Source: Balneola sp. (lineage in GTDB: Bacteria > Bacteroidota > Rhodothermia > Balneolales > Balneolaceae). Taken from it: a stretch of 64,000 nucleotides of DNA. Both the position numbers and the translations under genes were made by a program. This document shows positions 132 through 43,932 of this stretch, piece by piece. How positions within the stretch are numbered: position 1 is the stretch's first letter; every line of letters starts with the position of its first letter. The notes beneath the pieces were generated by a model, which had not been told where the DNA came from, did no database searches, and saw only the letters and a list, made by a program, of their open reading frames with translations. The stretch lies in NCBI GenBank assembly GCA_002696035.1, contig NZQV01000026.1:124001-188000 (forward strand), in the 5' to 3' direction.

Positions 132-155
132 ATGCATTCATCAATAAGAATGCAT
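132..155 (-). terminator. Hairpin directly after the SAM hydrolase gene
   Basis: A perfect 8-bp inverted repeat (ATGCATTC / GAATGCAT, 8-base loop) begins at the base after the stop codon of the SAM hydroxide adenosyltransferase gene. No U-run follows on the minus strand, so it is a hairpin and only a weak terminator candidate. Confidence 0.3.
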
Positions 156-944
156 TTACTTCTGAAGCACGATGGAGATTTGTGCGCCTTTATCAACACT
201 AAGCATGCGGGCAGCATTTCCTTTGTTGATACCGATCTCAAGATTCCCTGAACTGCCAATGAATGCAGCCGGTTCGCCATCTTCCACATCTCCAAAGGTA
301 GTTACGATCTTATTCAGCATCGTATTGCCTACGTAAATTTTCACATTCTTCTTTTTGAGATGATCTTTGATGAGGTCTTGGGTGAGGTTGGTGATGAGAT
401 TTCCAAAACGGTCGATATGCAACACCCAGCCCTGCAGCCCATCTTTATCAGCGAGAGGAACGGCCCAGTGATAGGTTACAAGCTCATCAATGGGTTCTCC
501 GATTTCCTCTAGAGAAACCCCTTCACAAAGGTGAGCCGCAACCGGGGCAAAAATATCACGGCCATGAAAGGTATTTGAGACCCCTTTTCTCCAATAATCA
601 GGATTGTTCAGCTTGCAGGCTTCGTACTCAAATTCATTAAAAAACAAAGAGAAGATCCCATTATCAGGACCTACAAAATATTGGTCTTTGACCTTCAGGG
701 CTACAGGATTACGAGATGTTCCCACACCCGGATCAACCACTACCAAATGCACGGTTCCCGGAGGATAAAGAAAAGCGGTATTCCGGATCACCCACGCACC
801 AGCCATGATATCCTGCGGAGGAATTTCATGCGACACATCCACAAACCGGACATCCGGTGCAATTCCTAACATGACCGCTTTCATTGCGCTCACGTAATAA
901 TCCTGGGTACCAAAGTCAGTTGTGAGTGTTATTATTTGACTCAT
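156..944 (-). CDS. SAM hydroxide adenosyltransferase (DUF62 / SAM hydrolase family)
   Basis: A 262-residue protein of the DUF62 family, whose characterised members hydrolyse S-adenosylmethionine to adenosine and methionine. It starts with the family signature TLTTDFGTQDYYV. It carries VVVDPGVGTSR (D71, R78) and FHGRD (H127), which match the Asp-Arg-His triad used to activate water. VGPDNG and IDRFGNLITNL are further family motifs. Length is normal for the family. Its ATG overlaps the dnaN stop by one base (TGATG), so it is translationally coupled to dnaN. The halogenating relatives (fluorinase, chlorinase) lack this triad, so hydrolase activity is the better call. Confidence 0.93.
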   Translation of the reverse strand: MSQIITLTTDFGTQDYYVSAMKAVMLGIAPDVRFVDVSHEIPPQDIMAGAWVIRNTAFLYPPGTVHLVVVDPGVGTSRNPVALKVKDQYFVGPDNGIFSLFFNEFEYEACKLNNPDYWRKGVSNTFHGRDIFAPVAAHLCEGVSLEEIGEPIDELVTYHWAVPLADKDGLQGWVLHIDRFGNLITNLTQDLIKDHLKKKNVKIYVGNTMLNKIVTTFGDVEDGEPAAFIGSSGNLEIGINKGNAARMLSVDKGAQISIVLQK

Positions 945-2059
945 CAGGCATAGCTGTTGAGCATAACCGGCATCACCAGCATCAGAATATCTTCGTTCTC
1001 ATTTTCTTGGGATGGCTTTACGATACCGGCGCGGTTAGGAGAAGAAAACTCAAAAGTCACTTCTTCATCGTCAATATTGCTAAGGACGTCACCTAAATAT
1101 TTCGCATTGAACCCGATCTCCATTTCTTCATCAGGGTATTCGCATTCAATGGTTTCTTTAGCTTCGCTGCTCATGTCCAGATCTTCTGCACGAATGGTGA
1201 GCTTGTCGGAACCCAACTGAAGTCGAATTTGGCGCGTAGTTGTGCTTGAGAAAATAGCCACACGTTTTACCGTTGAAAGCATTTGATCTTTGCTGATCGT
1301 CAGGAACTTGTCGTTATCGCGAGGAATCACAGAATCGTAGTTGGGATATTGCTCGTTGATCAGGCGGGTAATAACGATGGTTCCGCCACTCTTGAACCGG
1401 GCATGGTCTTCCGTTACAGTAAGATCACAATCTTCTCCGTCAATTGTCTTCTGAATGAGGCTGAGAGCTTTATCAGGCACAATGAAATTCACATCGTTAT
1501 CAGCTTTGATCTCGCGGCTGGTGTATTTCACTAACCGGTGTCCGTCTGTTGCTACAAACTTGCTTTCGTCGGTCCCGATCTGGAAATAAACGCCCATCAT
1601 GGCCGGGCGAAGGTCATCACTGGAAACGGCAAATAATGTTTTATGAATGGCTTTATGCATCAGCTCTCCGGTAGTACTGATGGTGGTTCCTTCATCAAGA
1701 CTTGGAACTTCAGGAAACTCATCCGCATCTTCTCCAACCAGCTTGTAGGTACCTTTATCTGTGCGGAAATTGATATTCATCCGGTCATCAACATCAAAGA
1801 AAACAGGTATATTTGGAAGCTGACGCAGCGTTTCGAGTAAACGACGAGCAGGAATAGCTACCGCTCCGTCTTCTTCAATATCAGCATTTATATATTCAAT
1901 GATAGAGATCTCGAGGTCGGTGGCAGTCAGCTTCAATTTACCATCTTCACTCTCAAAAAGAATGGTTTCGAGGATAGGCAAAGTTGCCTTGGAAGGAACG
2001 GCTCCAATTACGGCCGAAAGTCCTTTGTTCAGTTCATTACTCGATACAGAAAATTTCAT
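944..2059 (-). CDS. dnaN: DNA polymerase III subunit beta (sliding clamp)
   Basis: A 371-residue sliding clamp with the three-domain beta-clamp layout of about 120 residues per domain. Recognisable segments are the N-terminal MKFSVSSNELNKGL, ATDGHRLVKY in the middle and the C-terminal LVMPVML, which in the family contributes to the partner-binding pocket. The clamp tethers DNA polymerase III to template. dnaA, its usual neighbour, is absent: the next gene upstream is a divergent PorV-like gene. The ATG at 2059 gives the normal N-terminus. It probably forms a two-gene unit with the SAM hydrolase downstream. Confidence 0.97.
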   Translation of the reverse strand: MKFSVSSNELNKGLSAVIGAVPSKATLPILETILFESEDGKLKLTATDLEISIIEYINADIEEDGAVAIPARRLLETLRQLPNIPVFFDVDDRMNINFRTDKGTYKLVGEDADEFPEVPSLDEGTTISTTGELMHKAIHKTLFAVSSDDLRPAMMGVYFQIGTDESKFVATDGHRLVKYTSREIKADNDVNFIVPDKALSLIQKTIDGEDCDLTVTEDHARFKSGGTIVITRLINEQYPNYDSVIPRDNDKFLTISKDQMLSTVKRVAIFSSTTTRQIRLQLGSDKLTIRAEDLDMSSEAKETIECEYPDEEMEIGFNAKYLGDVLSNIDDEEVTFEFSSPNRAGIVKPSQENENEDILMLVMPVMLNSYA

Positions 2060-2244
2060 ATACGCAAAATTTAAAGAGGTTTAAGGGCGATTTTAAAGCC
2101 ATAGTTGCCCTTTCATTACAGTGTTCTTATACTAAGAAATACTAACCCTCTCTGCAACCGCAGAAAGAGCAAAATTAACCCCCAACAAGTCTCTGATATT
2201 ATCGTTTTAGCGCTACAGTAATTTTTAATATATCACTGTTTAAT

Positions 2245-3318
2245 ATGATCCGCTATTCCACTGCGCTTGCGATATTTATCCTACTTCCTGTCCTCTCACT
2301 GGCACAATCTGCACAGGCAAAATATGGAAATGATTTCTTGTCTACAGGAAGTGGTGCCCGGGCACTTGGAATGGGAAGCGCTCATGTTGCCCTCACCAAT
2401 GACGTAACCGCAGCTTACTGGAATGTAGCCGGTCTTTCTGAGCTGCAGTCTCCACAAATAATGTACATGCACTCCGAGCGATTCAGCGGCATTGTGGGGT
2501 ATGATTATGGCGGGGGCGCCATGCCTTTAAAAGATGATAAAGGAGCCATTGCCATCAGTTTTTTCCGGCAGGGCGTGGATAATATTGCAAACACGCTTAA
2601 CGCATGGGATCGTGAGCGAGATCAACCCAAAGGGAATGTAGAAGATTACATTACCCGTTTCAGCGCCGCAGATATGGCCGTCTTTTTCTCCTACGCCAAT
2701 CAGCGGACGGAACAGCTTTCATATGGAGCTTCTGCCAAGATCATTCATCATAAATTGGGTCCTTTTGCACAGGCCTGGGGCTATAGTTTGGATGTGGGCG
2801 CAAAGTACAAATCTGATTTTGCCAACTTTGGAGTCGCGGTAAAAGATGTTACCACCATGCAGAAAATGTGGGATGTGGATGAATCAGCCTTTGGAGATTA
2901 CGAATCCCAATTCGACAGTCTTGGAGCTACCTTACCCACCGGGCAAAATGAATATGTATTGCCTTCCTTAAAATTGGGAGCTTCTAAGTTTTTTCCCATC
3001 AGTGATGATTTTTTAGTGACAGCTGCCGCCGATGTGGATCTTTTGTTTGAAAACCGCCAGGCGTATTACATCAATCTTGGGAGAATGAGTGTGGAACCGC
3101 ATGTAGGAGGAGAGGTTTCGTATAAAGATGTGATTGCACTCCGAGCCGGTGTCACTGATTTCATAACTGATCCTGTTTCCGGGTTTTCGGTATCACCGAC
3201 TTTGGGAATGGGATTGAACGTATCTTCTTTTGTTCTAGATTATGGCTTCGCCAGTTTTGCCGGGGCTTCCAGCGATCTCGGTTTTACGCACCGCATTTCT
3301 CTTCGCTTTGATTTTTAA
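2245..3318 (+). CDS. PorV/PorQ-family outer-membrane protein
   Basis: A 357-residue protein with an N-terminal signal peptide (hydrophobic residues about 5-20, ending near AQSAQA). The mature start, GSGARALGMGSAHVALTNDVTAAYWNVAGL, is characteristic of the PorV/PorQ (UPF0164-like) beta-barrel family related to FadL. PorV proper serves in type IX secretion, but this family has many paralogues, so a specific role cannot be assigned. The rest alternates polar and hydrophobic residues as expected for barrel strands and ends in an aromatic residue (RFDF), as barrel substrates of the Bam machinery do. It is monocistronic and divergent from dnaN. Confidence 0.75.
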   Translation: MIRYSTALAIFILLPVLSLAQSAQAKYGNDFLSTGSGARALGMGSAHVALTNDVTAAYWNVAGLSELQSPQIMYMHSERFSGIVGYDYGGGAMPLKDDKGAIAISFFRQGVDNIANTLNAWDRERDQPKGNVEDYITRFSAADMAVFFSYANQRTEQLSYGASAKIIHHKLGPFAQAWGYSLDVGAKYKSDFANFGVAVKDVTTMQKMWDVDESAFGDYESQFDSLGATLPTGQNEYVLPSLKLGASKFFPISDDFLVTAAADVDLLFENRQAYYINLGRMSVEPHVGGEVSYKDVIALRAGVTDFITDPVSGFSVSPTLGMGLNVSSFVLDYGFASFAGASSDLGFTHRISLRFDF

Positions 3319-3330
3319 AATCGGTGTTTT

Positions 3331-3390
3331 AGTGTGATGGTGTTACGGTGTTATGGTATATTGCAAAACTATAACACCGTAACACTTTAA
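3331..3390. repeat. Degenerate 8-bp tandem units forming a 15-bp inverted repeat
   Basis: The left arm is built of GTGTGATG, GTGTTACG, GTGTTATG and GTATATTG in tandem. GTGTTACGGTGTTAT (3340-3354) pairs perfectly with ATAACACCGTAACAC (3371-3385) across a 16-base spacer. It separates the PorV-like gene from miaA and may end transcription, but no clear U-run follows. Confidence 0.6.
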
Positions 3391-3402
3391 TACCATTTAT
3401 CT

Positions 3403-4308
3403 TTGCGTATCATCATTTTAGGCCCAACGGCATCCGGTAAAACTGAACTTTCCATACAACTTGCTGAGGAGTTACAAACTTCTATCATTTCTGCTGATTC
3501 CCGGCAGTGTTACAAGCATATTGATATTGGAACAGCCAAGCCCTCCAAAGAAGAATTAGAGCGCGTTCCTCACTACAATATTTCTACTCTTGAATTGGAA
3601 GAAGATGACAATGCTATGGAATTACAGAGGCGAGCCCGGAAATGGGAAAAGGAAATTTTGAAGGATTCAGATCATGTGATCTATGTGGGAGGGAGTACGC
3701 TTCATATCCAAAGTTTAATTCAGCCTTTTAATGAAATGCCGGAGGCGGATGAAACAAACATCGCGAAACTTGAACAGCGAATTGAACATGAAGGACTGGA
3801 ATCACTGTATGAGCTGTTAAGACAGATTGATCCGGATTACGCCAAAAAGATGGATGGAATGAATCGTCAACGCATCATTCGCGCACTGGATGTATGGATG
3901 CAAACCGGAAAGCCCTTCAGTAGTTTCCATCAGCAGGGAGAAATTCAACCCGATGATAACACCCTCGTTTTTGGGTTGAAGTGGCCACGCCAAAAGCTAT
4001 ACAACCGCATCAATCAACGAGTGGATAAGATGGTGGAAGCTGGACTGGTTGATGAGGTAAAATCAATTTTGAGCGATCATCCCAAAGATCTACAATCGTT
4101 GAATACGGTGGGATATCAGGAGATCATAAAATATCTGGATGGTGAATGGACCTTGGATAAAGCGATCGAAAAGATCAAGACGAGTACACGTCGCTATGCC
4201 AAAAGACAGATCACATGGTACAAGCGATGGGAATTTGTGCATTGGCTGGAGGTAGATGGGTTGAGTGTTCAGGAGATGAAGGAAGAGATTTTAAATAGAT
4301 TGAACTGA
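3403..4308 (+). CDS. miaA: tRNA dimethylallyltransferase
   Basis: A 301-residue enzyme that transfers dimethylallyl from DMAPP to A37 of tRNAs reading UNN codons. The P-loop GPTASGKT is at residues 7-14, the substrate motif SADSRQCYKHIDIGTAKP follows, and TRRYAKRQITWYKR near the C-terminus is a family signature. The start is TTG: an in-frame stop lies 12 bases upstream, and no ATG fits the conserved N-terminus. The TTG sits inside TATCTTTG, which matches the Bacteroidota -7 consensus TAnnTTTG, so either the match is fortuitous or initiation is unusual. Confidence 0.95.
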   Translation: MRIIILGPTASGKTELSIQLAEELQTSIISADSRQCYKHIDIGTAKPSKEELERVPHYNISTLELEEDDNAMELQRRARKWEKEILKDSDHVIYVGGSTLHIQSLIQPFNEMPEADETNIAKLEQRIEHEGLESLYELLRQIDPDYAKKMDGMNRQRIIRALDVWMQTGKPFSSFHQQGEIQPDDNTLVFGLKWPRQKLYNRINQRVDKMVEAGLVDEVKSILSDHPKDLQSLNTVGYQEIIKYLDGEWTLDKAIEKIKTSTRRYAKRQITWYKRWEFVHWLEVDGLSVQEMKEEILNRLN

Positions 4309-36761: not shown

Positions 36762-36902
36762 TTATCCCAAACCTCCTCCGCTGCCGCCACTTTTACCTCC
36801 GTCATCTTCACCGTCTCCGGAGGTATCGTCGTCTGGATCCACATCATTGTTTTTGTAGTGTTGAAGTGATAGAATATCGGCTTGAGCTAACGTATCTTTC
36901 AT
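36762..36902 (-). CDS. 46-residue acidic, glycine-rich peptide, unrecognised
   Basis: A short complete minus-strand frame starts with ATG at 36902 and ends with TAA at 36762. The N-terminal half is MKDTLAQADILSLQHYKNND. The middle is Asp-rich (VDPDDDTSGDGEDD) and the end is Gly/Ser-rich (GGKSGGSGGGLG). There is no signal peptide or cysteine. The composition is biased but not random, and the frame spans most of the gap between ftsY and the TPR-CHAT gene. It lies back to back with the TPR-CHAT gene with 74 bp between the starts, so they may share regulation. Function unknown. Confidence 0.5.
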   Translation of the reverse strand: MKDTLAQADILSLQHYKNNDVDPDDDTSGDGEDDGGKSGGSGGGLG

Positions 36903-36976
36903 ATCTAAGTGATTGAATTAAGGTTCAAAATAAAAAACGCTATATTGATTTTAATTGCAACCACAACCATAGCTTT

Positions 36977-39904
36977 ATGAGATTAGTTTTACTTGTCCTG
37001 TTCATAGGTAGCTCCTCTTTTTTCGGGAACGTGAATGGACAGAACACTAATCCTGACTCTTTGTTCGATGTAGCAAAAAAACACTATGATCTGGCCAATT
37101 ATGATCAAGCTATCAAAATATTTGACGAGTCCGGGCAGGTTTTCCTTCAACAAGGCGATTCGGTTAACTGGGTACATGCCAACCTGAGTAAAGGGGATGC
37201 TCTTTTAAACAGTGGAAATGTCAGGCAGGCGCTGGATCTTTTCTTATTTCTTGATGAACAAACCCCATCTGCTGTTTCCAACTCTATTCTTGCCCGCATA
37301 CAGTATTTCATTGGCTGGAGCTACCGGGAACTGGAGCAGTATGAAGAATCAAAAAAATATTACCTCGAAGGCATAGAGTTCGCCAATGCTGCAAATGACT
37401 CCCTGCTAACCGGCCGCATGAATAACAATATTTCTTATCCCTATTTGTACACCGGAGATTACTACACCGCTCTTAGTTTCCAGAAAAAGGCGATGGATAT
37501 TTACGAATCGCTTGGAAATAAAAGAAGCCTTTCTAATGTGATGAACGGCACTTTTTTGGTATTAACTGAATTGGGATTACACCGGCAGGCTCAGAATTAT
37601 ATCCGTCAAAGTTTAGCGCTTCGGGAAGAGATCGGGAACCCCCACATGCTTGACATTGCCTACCATAATATGGCTGTAAACTTCAAGGAACTTGGCAGAA
37701 CCGACAGTGCTATCATCTACTATCAAAGATCACTGGAACTTTCCCGGCAGCTGCAGAACCCCTTCGACATTACCCAAACGCTGATCAATATTGGCCGGCT
37801 TTATCATGATTCTGGTGACCTCGATAACGCCTTGTCTTATTTCAATGAGGCACTGGAGGTCAATTATCAAACCGAACGCCCCGTTTCAATTGCCAATAAC
37901 CTAACAGAGCTGGCGCTGGTTGCCCGTCAAAAAGATGATTACGATAATGCCGAAAATTTTTATCGTGAAGCGCTCAACTGGCTGGGTGAAACAAATTCAC
38001 CACAAACCCGCTCTGCCATTTACCTGGATCTTGCTGAGCTTGAACTATCGCGAAACAATTTTTCTGATACCCGCAACTACATAGATCAGGCAAAAAAGCT
38101 ATCCGACAGTAAAGAATTCCTTTACCTCACGGCCCGGTCACATGCTTTACTGGGTAAATTACATCAGGCGAAGGGGGATTTTTCAGAAAGCCTCAACGAA
38201 TACCGGAAAGTCTATAGCATGTACGCTGACCAGAATTACACAGCCCAGATAGAGCCGGCTATGAACCTTGCCCGCGCTCATTATTTATCTGATTCAGACA
38301 GCGCCTTCTACTATGCCGATGAAGCTTTTGCGCTCATTGATTCGGGCAGAACAACTGTCGCCGGACTCACTTTTAGATCTGGTTTTTATCGTGAGCATGC
38401 AGGCTTTTATAATGAGGTAGCCTCTTGGTACATCACCCAGAAAAATGATGCAGAAAAGGCTTTTGAGCTGGTAGAAGCTGCAAAAGCCCGGGTTTTGATG
38501 GATGAACTCGCTGAAGCGCAAGAGAATGTGTACACTGCTCTGGATGAATCCACACTCATCAAAAAGCAGCAAAAAGCAAAACAGATCGACCGGGTATATC
38601 AACAAATGGAACAGGCACAATCGGAGGAAGAAGTTCAGGCTTTAAAGCGTGAATTGACCGACCTTGAGTTTGAATATCAGTCTTTTTTGAATGAGATTCA
38701 CTCCGCTAATAAACAGTTAAAGAATTTCACGTATCCTCAACCTATCGAACTTGCTCAAATTCAGCGGCTACTGAATTCTGAAACGGCCATTCTGGAATAC
38801 ACCTTTACTGAAAATGGGGTTATCCAGCTTGTTATCACCCAAAATAATATCCGGGGGACCTACATCCATTCGTTTGAAGGCATGGATGCCAAAGCATTTA
38901 TTACCGAAGAGGTCCGGTCTTTCAGAACATCTATTATTGAAGGGGAGGAGATCACCGAAATCCAGGAAAAGGGTACGGCTTTATATGAAACGTTGATCTC
39001 TTCGGTTCTCAGTTCAAACAACAATTCCTTATCCAATATTGTTATTGTTCCTGATGGGCCGTTGAGCTTTCTGCCATTTGAGGCACTTTTTAACGGAACT
39101 ACTTATTTGGTTGAAGACCACCTGATCAAATATCTGCCTTCAGCTTCAATTTATCCATATATACAATCCCCTCACCGCATAACAACAAAGGGGCTGCTGG
39201 CACTTGCCGGCTCTGGCTTTGAAAGCGAACAGAGTGTTACTTCCCCAAACCTTTCACAGGCCTCTTTTGCATCCCTGCCTTCCACCTTATTAGAGGTTGA
39301 TTCCATTGCAACCAATTTTGAGTCTTCTACCATTTTGAAAAATGAAGAAGTTACTGAAGCGAGCCTCAAATCTCATGACCTTAGTAATTTTCAATTCCTC
39401 CACTTTGCAACTCACGCAAATGTGGATGAAGTAAATCCCTCCCGCAGTGGACTCTTGCTCTCTAAAAAAGCAGATGTGGAATCTTTGTTTGGAGAAGATG
39501 GTCACCTGAACAGCCGCGAGATCTCAAATCTTCAATTGAATGCAGATCTTGTAACCTTGAGTGCCTGTAATACCGGAATGGGACCATTAGTAACAGGAGA
39601 AGGATTGATCGGGCTTCAGCGTTCTTTTATTTCTGCCGGAGCTTCTTCTGTGATGGTTAGCCTCTGGTCTGTTTTTGACCGAAGCACCTCGAAATTCATG
39701 TCCATTTTTTACCGCAGTTTATTGACACACCGTGAAGATGAATACGGACTGTGGAATCAAACAATGGATTGGTTCGGGTTCTACGAACACCCCATGATAG
39801 ATTACAAGACCAAGGCTATTCGTGATGCCAAGATCTCTCTTATCAACCATCCCTACTACAACCACCCTGTGCACTGGGCTCCTTTCATTTTGATCGGGAA
39901 ATAA
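36977..39904 (+). CDS. Secreted TPR-CHAT domain protein (caspase-like peptidase)
   Basis: A 975-residue protein with a signal peptide (residues 1-21, MRLVLLVLFIGSSSFFGNVN). TPR repeats fill about 25-490, for example YQRSLELSRQLQNPFDITQT and LSYFNEALEVNYQTER. A charged helical, probably coiled-coil linker follows (about 500-590), then a CHAT domain (about 600-975). CHAT is a caspase-related cysteine peptidase fold. The catalytic pair is present: H813 in HFATHAN and C864 in LSACNTG. It is likely active in the periplasm or at the surface. It is divergent from the 46-residue peptide gene and ends in a terminator. No CRISPR or gRAMP genes are near, so it is not Csx29. Confidence 0.88.
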   Translation: MRLVLLVLFIGSSSFFGNVNGQNTNPDSLFDVAKKHYDLANYDQAIKIFDESGQVFLQQGDSVNWVHANLSKGDALLNSGNVRQALDLFLFLDEQTPSAVSNSILARIQYFIGWSYRELEQYEESKKYYLEGIEFANAANDSLLTGRMNNNISYPYLYTGDYYTALSFQKKAMDIYESLGNKRSLSNVMNGTFLVLTELGLHRQAQNYIRQSLALREEIGNPHMLDIAYHNMAVNFKELGRTDSAIIYYQRSLELSRQLQNPFDITQTLINIGRLYHDSGDLDNALSYFNEALEVNYQTERPVSIANNLTELALVARQKDDYDNAENFYREALNWLGETNSPQTRSAIYLDLAELELSRNNFSDTRNYIDQAKKLSDSKEFLYLTARSHALLGKLHQAKGDFSESLNEYRKVYSMYADQNYTAQIEPAMNLARAHYLSDSDSAFYYADEAFALIDSGRTTVAGLTFRSGFYREHAGFYNEVASWYITQKNDAEKAFELVEAAKARVLMDELAEAQENVYTALDESTLIKKQQKAKQIDRVYQQMEQAQSEEEVQALKRELTDLEFEYQSFLNEIHSANKQLKNFTYPQPIELAQIQRLLNSETAILEYTFTENGVIQLVITQNNIRGTYIHSFEGMDAKAFITEEVRSFRTSIIEGEEITEIQEKGTALYETLISSVLSSNNNSLSNIVIVPDGPLSFLPFEALFNGTTYLVEDHLIKYLPSASIYPYIQSPHRITTKGLLALAGSGFESEQSVTSPNLSQASFASLPSTLLEVDSIATNFESSTILKNEEVTEASLKSHDLSNFQFLHFATHANVDEVNPSRSGLLLSKKADVESLFGEDGHLNSREISNLQLNADLVTLSACNTGMGPLVTGEGLIGLQRSFISAGASSVMVSLWSVFDRSTSKFMSIFYRSLLTHREDEYGLWNQTMDWFGFYEHPMIDYKTKAIRDAKISLINHPYYNHPVHWAPFILIGK

Positions 39905-42395: not shown

Positions 42396-42475
42396 ACACT
42401 TAAATTACATTGATAAAAACTCAATTTCTTTGTTTTCTTTTCGTTGCCGAATGTTATTTTAATGCCTCTTTCAAC

Positions 42476-43033
42476 ATGGGCAAATACAAGGACATGGATT
42501 ATTCAAAATTTGTAGATGCAGTACAAGACGATGACGCTACTGTTATCACCAAGCAAGTGAATGTGATCACCCCTGTTCTTATCAAATTTCTTACCGTTAG
42601 GTTGAATGCAGACCTTCAGGATGCCCAGGATTGCGCACAAAATACACTACTTATTGCGATAGAAAAAATCCGCGGAGACGAATTATCGCACCCAGATGCC
42701 CTCATAAACTACCTCTTTACTACTGCAAAACATGAGTATTTCAAGGTGCTCTCCAAAGACCGCGAATACAATTATGAAGAGCCTCCGGAACACCATTCTA
42801 GCCCCGCAGATCAGCTGCACAGGTTAGTGGATGAAGAGAAAATGAGCATCCTAAAACAGTGCATAGCCACGCTGAAGACCGATTACAGAAAATTTATAGA
42901 ATATTGGTTTCAGAACCCGGCTTATGAAACTTCAGTAGTCGCAGATCATTTCGGAATGTCCGTCAACAATGCCTGGACTAAAAAACACCGGGTCATAAAT
43001 GCACTTCAAAAATGCTTCGAAAAAAAATTTTAA
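42476..43033 (+). CDS. ECF-like RNA polymerase sigma factor
   Basis: A 185-residue sigma factor with both ECF regions. The region 2 part is VITPVLIKFLTVRLNADLQDAQDCAQNTLLIAIEKI...PDALINYLFTTAKHEYFKVL. The region 4 part is LKQCIATLKTDYRKFIEYWF...VADHFGMSVNNAWTKKHRVINAL. The ATG at 42476 gives a sensible start; an in-frame TTG at 42410 would add 22 hydrophobic non-family residues. The membrane TPR protein downstream is the probable anti-sigma factor. It lies 2.6 kb from the TPR-CHAT gene in the same direction. Confidence 0.85.
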   Translation: MGKYKDMDYSKFVDAVQDDDATVITKQVNVITPVLIKFLTVRLNADLQDAQDCAQNTLLIAIEKIRGDELSHPDALINYLFTTAKHEYFKVLSKDREYNYEEPPEHHSSPADQLHRLVDEEKMSILKQCIATLKTDYRKFIEYWFQNPAYETSVVADHFGMSVNNAWTKKHRVINALQKCFEKKF

Positions 43034-43104: not shown

Positions 43105-43131
43105 TTTTATAGCAAATTGAAAAACACGCCC

Positions 43132-43932
43132 ATGGGGAACTCGAGAGAAATAGAAATTCGTAAACAAATTGACGCCTACATAAAGGGGAACTTATCTGAG
43201 GAAGAAATTCAGAACCTCTGGAATGAGTTTGCTAAACACCCAGAACTCCTGGATGCTCTTGAGATCGAAGTCAACGTGAAAGCCATCATAGAACAAGAAT
43301 CTCAGAAACAGGCAACATCATCTTCACCAATACACAAGTTGCCGAAATGGACGTGGCATGCTGCTGCCGCTGCTGTTATTGCCATCATAGCACTGGTTCA
43401 GATCTTCAGGGTTCAGACGCCTACCAATATGGATCAGTTTGTGGTACAACGCATTGGCCCTGAACAGGTTGAGACTTCCGATGGGATCCGGGCTAAAGAA
43501 ATGCAGATCACAGAAGCTGACTCTCTGCTAAACCTCGGCTTTGAAGCCATCATTTCCGGAAACGAAGAACGAGCTTTGGAGTTGTTTGATCGGGTCATTA
43601 ACAATCACGGAGAAGAGCCTTATGGTTCTAAAGCGTATCTGAACAAGGGAATTGTGCTTTACAATGAAGCCGATTACGGGAACGCTATTCTTGCCTTTGA
43701 AGAGGCCCTAAACCGAGTTGAAGACAGTCGCATGATATCCGAAAAAGCTTATTGGTATCTGGGCAATGCTTATATAAATATCGGAGAACTTGAGAAAGCT
43801 CAGGATGCTGTTTTCAGTGCCTACCAAATGGACGGAGTTTTCAGGAACCCGGCTTTTAGGTTGCTAAAAAAACTGAGCGACGACCTAGGCACTACCGACT
43901 ATGAAGAATTCCGCACCCCTGAACTGGATTAG
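43132..43932 (+). CDS. Membrane TPR protein, probable anti-sigma factor
   Basis: A 266-residue bitopic protein. The N-terminal cytoplasmic part has RKQIDAYIKGNLSEEEIQNLWNEFAKHPELLDALE, the pattern of anti-sigma (zinc-finger-less HC2/FecR-like) domains. One membrane helix (HAAAAAVIAIIALVQIF) is at about 70-90. The outer part carries TPR-like repeats (about 140-245), such as YGSKAYLNKGIVLYNEADYGNAILAFEEAL. It follows the sigma-factor gene by about 100 bp. By position and topology it may hold the sigma factor and sense a signal through the TPRs. ATG at 43132; a TTG at 43117 is also possible. Confidence 0.72.
   Translation: MGNSREIEIRKQIDAYIKGNLSEEEIQNLWNEFAKHPELLDALEIEVNVKAIIEQESQKQATSSSPIHKLPKWTWHAAAAAVIAIIALVQIFRVQTPTNMDQFVVQRIGPEQVETSDGIRAKEMQITEADSLLNLGFEAIISGNEERALELFDRVINNHGEEPYGSKAYLNKGIVLYNEADYGNAILAFEEALNRVEDSRMISEKAYWYLGNAYINIGELEKAQDAVFSAYQMDGVFRNPAFRLLKKLSDDLGTTDYEEFRTPELD

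Follow-up and report, generated by a model that had tools for sequence, protein, structure and literature searches.

A frame of 46 codons, back to back with a TPR-CHAT gene of Balneola sp., is almost certainly a genuine protein-coding gene that is conserved, in divergent orientation, beside one subfamily of exported, dyad-intact TPR-CHAT proteins in Balneolaceae and beside CHATs resembling them in further families of the class; both Balneolota and Rhodothermota show the arrangement. The proposal of the initial annotation, a gene dedicated to this CHAT as its partner, is well supported: its position is conserved, it carries a coding signal with purifying selection, and it occurs together with the CHAT clade and, where genomes were searched whole, as one copy solely beside this CHAT. 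These sequence comparisons make its product a strong candidate partner, dedicated to the exported TPR-CHAT enzyme. The window, i.e., the whole stretch of 64,000 nucleotides that was analysed, belongs to a genome of 27 contigs (3.97 Mb) and carries the following features:

36762-36902, minus strand: microprotein gene, 46 codons plus stop (frame read, conservation across relatives)
36903-36976, no strand: divergent intergenic region of 74 bp between both start codons (sequence; block conserved in other genera)
36932-36946, plus strand: AAAAAAC-NN-TATATT element, probable promoter element (conservation in other genera; sole exact match in the window)
36977-39904, plus strand: TPR-CHAT gene, exported putative protease of 975 aa (frame, Pfam, AlphaFold model)
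36977-37039, plus strand: N-terminal signal peptide, residues 1-21, then an invariant Gln22 (inspection and hydropathy)
38963-39901, plus strand: CHAT (caspase-like) domain, residues 663-975 (Pfam)
39413-39415, plus strand: predicted catalytic His813 codon (sequence and alignment)
39566-39568, plus strand: predicted catalytic Cys864 codon (sequence and alignment)

Re-reading of the sequence bore out a complete minus-strand frame starting 74 bp from the divergent CHAT start. Its translation, MKDTLAQADILSLQHYKNNDVDPDDDTSGDGEDDGGKSGGSGGGLG (46 aa), consists of a short hydrophobic/aromatic N-terminal part, an acidic middle and a Gly/Ser-rich tail, and by inspection and hydropathy it has no signal peptide. 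The family comprises signal-less, acidic/Gly/Pro-rich microproteins of 28-72 aa, probably unfolded or disordered, with a median net charge of -5 for the peptides beside 56 CHATs. They follow a common scheme: behind the start lie 5-20 residues, some of them hydrophobic or aromatic, in many cases a PD or PG step, and then a low-complexity stretch rich in D, E, G, P and S; little sequence is shared. The sequences turn over fast, and across families only the Gly/Pro/Asp-rich make-up recurs, without any one strongly conserved residue. No Pfam or NCBIfam family matched the peptide, no Rfam family matched its locus, and PADLOC had no specific model for the pair, matching the CHAT in its TPR region only and the peptide not at all.

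The divergent neighbour belongs to the TPR-CHAT class by its Pfam matches, with CHAT (PF12770) at 206.6 bits against a gathering cut-off of 24 (E 7e-61) and TPR_12 at 118.8 bits. The retained His and Cys and the signal peptide reported in the initial annotation hold: H813 and C864 were invariant in all 141 CHAT domains compared, and the typical export signal MRLVLLVLFIGSSSFFGNVNG is followed by Q22, invariant in a 20-protein alignment. The mismatch flagged there, a peptide without a signal beside an exported CHAT, proved to be constant, since all 56 peptide-positive CHATs keep the His and Cys and a hydrophobic N-terminal export signal, and their peptides, judged by inspection and hydropathy, lack one, that of L077 being the sole borderline case. 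In Foldseek, the AlphaFold model of the window CHAT (mean pLDDT 85, pTM 0.82) matched the separase-securin, separase-SCC1 and Csx29-Csx30 complexes of the PDB, a resemblance of predicted structure, and LGN, kinesin light chain and RapF, whose TPRs bind peptides, are similar in sequence to its TPR part.

Between the two start codons, the block AGGTT-N6-AAAAAACA-NN-ATATT is kept between genera, and the exact AAAAAACNNTATATT occurs once in the window, at 36932-36946. We regard the conserved AAAAAAC-NN-TATATT as a probable promoter element. The same element was not seen in the one region read upstream of the nearby ECF sigma gene.

The initial annotation had proposed looking for the frame beside CHAT genes of related genomes. 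A search with the peptide only gave matches adjoining CHAT orthologues in three members of its own genus. Small acidic divergent frames lay upstream of all 30 CHAT orthologues fetched first, and each of the 39 genes sampled from the Balneolaceae CHAT clade is immediately preceded by a divergent frame for a signal-less peptide rich in acidic residues, Gly and Pro. As a control, the DNA upstream of 141 CHAT genes was collected and each divergent frame in it scored against a profile for which only Balneolaceae peptides had served as training set. Scores of 12-58 bits were obtained beside 52 of the 141 CHATs; at L021, L080 and L094 the peptide is present beyond the stretch that was scanned or behind an over-long start, and at L232 a frame of 4.8 bits was accepted as a peptide by inspection. 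The best score at the other 85 was at most 3.9 bits. The peptide-positive loci total 56: 39 belong to Balneolaceae and two to a different family of Balneolales, and the remaining 15 are spread over six more families of the class (f6, f7, f8, f9, f12 and f14).

With its whole genus left out of the profile, the window's own peptide ranked second among about 4,200 scored background frames. When single clades were left out, against about 4,100 scored background frames, the frames scoring as good or better numbered 0-4 for Gracilimonas, 1-5 for the Balneola type, 3-7 for the g5/g10 type and 1-25 for the Fodinibius type, and the top-scoring "background" frames were unlisted family members in front of other CHAT genes. 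Whole-genome profile searches returned one convincing peptide copy, solely beside this CHAT, and no convincing copy away from the CHAT in 94 genomes; weak genome matches (L161-L164) were set aside, as they looked like chance once the DNA was read. A second peptide-like frame was observed downstream of the CHAT of L094 (8955-9074, minus strand, 11.5 bits), near the contig end, where it may accompany another CHAT gene lying past that end.

On the CHAT tree, the peptide label requires five changes, compared to a mean of 44 for shuffled labels, and three of the five are forced by well-supported branches. Two histories may be compatible with this tree, a single origin followed by losses, or two origins. 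The profile match across families reflects similar make-up and position, and homology of the peptides between distant families is putative.

The codon-position bias, which the initial annotation had named as a check, is evident in many independent pairs: in close pairs the substitutions fall mainly at third codon positions and indels keep the frame. The changes at codon positions 1, 2 and 3 were 4, 5 and 14 for L024/L031, 7, 0 and 11 for L030/L086, 5, 5 and 17 for L240/L242, and 5, 4 and 22 for L185/L186. In every close pair pS was well above pN (0.27-1.13 and 0.10-0.31, respectively, in the closest pairs); the pairs were aligned as protein, which biases toward low pN, and the third-position excess persists where lengths hardly differ. 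A Shine-Dalgarno-like AGGAG precedes many peptide starts, notably in the Fodinibius type, and no clear ribosome-binding site was seen before the window's own copy. Absence of the frame outside this genome, or stop codons in close relatives, would have spoken against the initial annotation; we looked for both and found neither. A structured RNA was rejected, as no Rfam family matched.

The usual gene order is PgsA-FtsY-(peptide)-CHAT-M28 peptidase-ScpA-ECF sigma-TPR anti-sigma. Synteny with ftsY alone was rejected as the tie, since ftsY-linked CHATs of another type (L040-L043, L051-L055) are without the peptide, and also because L020/L063 keep peptide and CHAT together with different upstream genes, a transporter pair, where the ftsY neighbourhood is interrupted. 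In L027, L033 and L083 a second CHAT lies between ftsY and the peptide-CHAT pair, and in several Fodinibius-type genomes an extra, longer CHAT lies between FtsY and the pair, the peptide fronting the 975-aa type only. Because the pair persists in L063 and the peptide fronts only the 975-aa CHAT, the peptide goes with the CHAT and not with ftsY. In the tandems of L044, L057, L058 and L083, a CHAT of ~1,030 aa without a peptide is directly followed by the 975-aa CHAT, and the peptide gene occupies the opposite strand between these two. In the loci read, no Cas genes were seen beside the window-type CHAT.

Further downstream, the window carries an ECF sigma factor (42410-43033) and a candidate membrane-anchored TPR anti-sigma factor (43117-43932), conserved downstream of the CHAT across Balneolaceae. 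Peptide-less CHAT paralogues of a distinct type, with 1,026-1,086 aa (L056, L190, L193, L194, L197 and L199), adjoin a homologue of this anti-sigma, and those of L193, L194 and L197 are also near an ECF sigma homologue. This gene order suggests that exported TPR-CHATs and sigma/anti-sigma pairs form one signalling module, in which the anti-sigma is perhaps the substrate. The CHAT model also has high-ranking Foldseek matches to the transmembrane anti-sigma factor DdvA (8rw5, 8rot), so TPR-CHAT-like folds and anti-sigma factors may be structurally linked.

Any mechanism has to accommodate the constant features, namely the CHAT dyad and signal, a short, acidic, signal-less peptide, its fast turnover and the divergent orientation. 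Because of these features, the matches of the CHAT model to separase-securin and Csx29, and the peptide-binding-like TPRs, we tentatively prefer, by analogy, a securin- or staphostatin-like cytosolic guard, in which the microprotein would act as pseudosubstrate inhibitor or chaperone and bind its own protease before export. The microprotein would remain in the cytosol and use its short hydrophobic/aromatic segment to bind newly made CHAT ahead of export or while it proceeds, its acidic flexible tail keeping the complex soluble and occupying the active site or the TPR groove. Such a fast-evolving guard would block early proteolysis and be shed as the protease crosses the membrane, the divergent layout and the conserved intergenic element keeping both genes in step. 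Below this reading we rank, in descending order, a ligand or substrate that is encountered once the envelope is breached, a regulatory role and an exported substrate.

The guard has precedents. As in separase-securin, a caspase-like protease domain follows a long stretch of helical repeats, by the Foldseek matches to separase complexes, and the partner is poorly conserved and, here probably, disordered; securin is described as a pseudosubstrate of separase (PMC6858450). Securin, however, is larger and shares a compartment with separase, whereas here the protease has an export signal, and the partner, which measures 28-72 aa, is a putative binder. The staphopain-staphostatin and SpeB-Spi pairs likewise join a secreted cysteine protease to a small adjacent gene, an arrangement conserved here at 56 loci, and staphostatin B, which is not exported, guards the cytoplasm. 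Those proteases belong to other clans, and their inhibitors are folded or propeptide-like and unrelated in sequence. Inhibitors of the staphostatin/Spi type are co-transcribed with the protease (PMC2873492), while here the genes are divergent and the product is probably disordered. That known guards are usually co-transcribed with their protease counts against the guard reading, as does the lack of a residue strongly conserved across families, unlike a classical active-site inhibitor. Simple electrostatic docking of the acidic peptide was rejected, since the whole-domain charges are negative (-33 for the TPR part and -13 for the CHAT part of the window protein); the charge correlation across CHAT-peptide pairs was weak, uncorrected for kinship.

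The same topology would also fit a cytosolic peptide that is the substrate or activating ligand of a CHAT lying in the periplasm or outside, the two meeting only after envelope damage or lysis by phage or toxin; binding or cutting of the peptide would then elicit a response, as with caspase-like proteases that release damage peptides. We consider this unlikely, and still more doubtful its fuller form, a compartment-breach sensor: a periplasmic or surface caspase-like protease would have a disordered cytosolic microprotein as its dedicated ligand or substrate and would meet it only on envelope failure. The opposite topology is constant (56 CHATs with export signal, peptides without), the peptide is short, flexible and fast-evolving, and a TPR-CHAT is known to cut its dedicated partner Csx30 (PMC10028731), but no cleavage-site residue is conserved across the peptide family. 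Csx29-Csx30 resembles the present pair as a TPR-CHAT protease of the same overall fold (Foldseek) with a dedicated partner; Csx29, in contrast, is cytosolic and CRISPR-bound where the window CHAT has an export signal, and Csx30, a large protein of two domains, inhibits a sigma factor. If the breach reading were true, cleavage would report lysis or damage, and the system would be a bacterial equivalent of damage-released peptides.

There is a low probability that the microprotein acts on regulation, for instance on expression out of the divergent region both genes share or on the ECF sigma/anti-sigma pair nearby, with the CHAT co-regulated. A block is conserved in the divergent intergenic region, in Balneolaceae the ECF sigma and TPR anti-sigma genes follow the CHAT at a distance of three to four genes, more distant CHAT paralogues adjoin homologous sigma/anti-sigma genes, and the type III-E CRISPR TPR-CHAT cuts an anti-sigma-like protein (PMC10028731). 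However, the sigma-linked CHAT paralogues are without the peptide, the intergenic element is missing from the one sigma gene upstream region read, and the peptide has no recognisable DNA-binding domain.

Nearest to the wording of the initial annotation is a peptide exported by an unrecognised route, which would be an ordinary periplasmic substrate or activator of the CHAT; we judge this improbable. Some members (L020, L036) have a GG motif, and in L063 a C39-peptidase ABC transporter and an HlyD-like gene (140-3438) adjoin the peptide, which had raised the idea of double-glycine/C39 export. Against it, no Sec-type signal was found in the peptides, and no C39-peptidase ABC transporter is present in the window's own genome or most relatives (above cut-off in 14 of the 58 genomes searched). 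The L063 genome has several C39 copies elsewhere, and its transporter beside the peptide is probably incidental. GG follows a hydrophobic segment in few members only; in the window's own peptide it sits in the tail, not in a leader before a core peptide. C39 export was rejected for the lack of the transporter in the window's own genome and most relatives. Likewise, RRNPP systems of the Rap-Phr type resemble this locus in a TPR protein with a small adjoining peptide gene and in the similarity to RapF, but there the propeptides bear export signals and the receptor is cytosolic, with no protease domain, so that the topology is reversed here.

Finally, a chance open frame or conserved non-coding DNA has a negligible probability: the frame has merely 46 codons, is of low complexity and its own ribosome-binding site is not clear, yet all 30 first-fetched and 39 of 39 clade orthologues carry the divergent peptide frame, 56 loci have it in all, the third-position excess and in-frame indels recur in many independent pairs, the held-out profiles rank it high and Rfam gave no match.

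Dedicated protein partners of proteases are known; the link of a disordered microprotein with an exported TPR-CHAT is, as far as we found, undescribed, since a search of open-licence papers returned no such pair, in agreement with the initial annotation. A real gene family was thus missing from the curated family libraries searched, and was detectable only through position, codon bias and composition together. Exported TPR-CHATs are common in these bacteria, and a described substrate or regulator was not found in the open-licence literature; the microprotein tied to this subfamily provides a concrete candidate partner for an exported TPR-CHAT.
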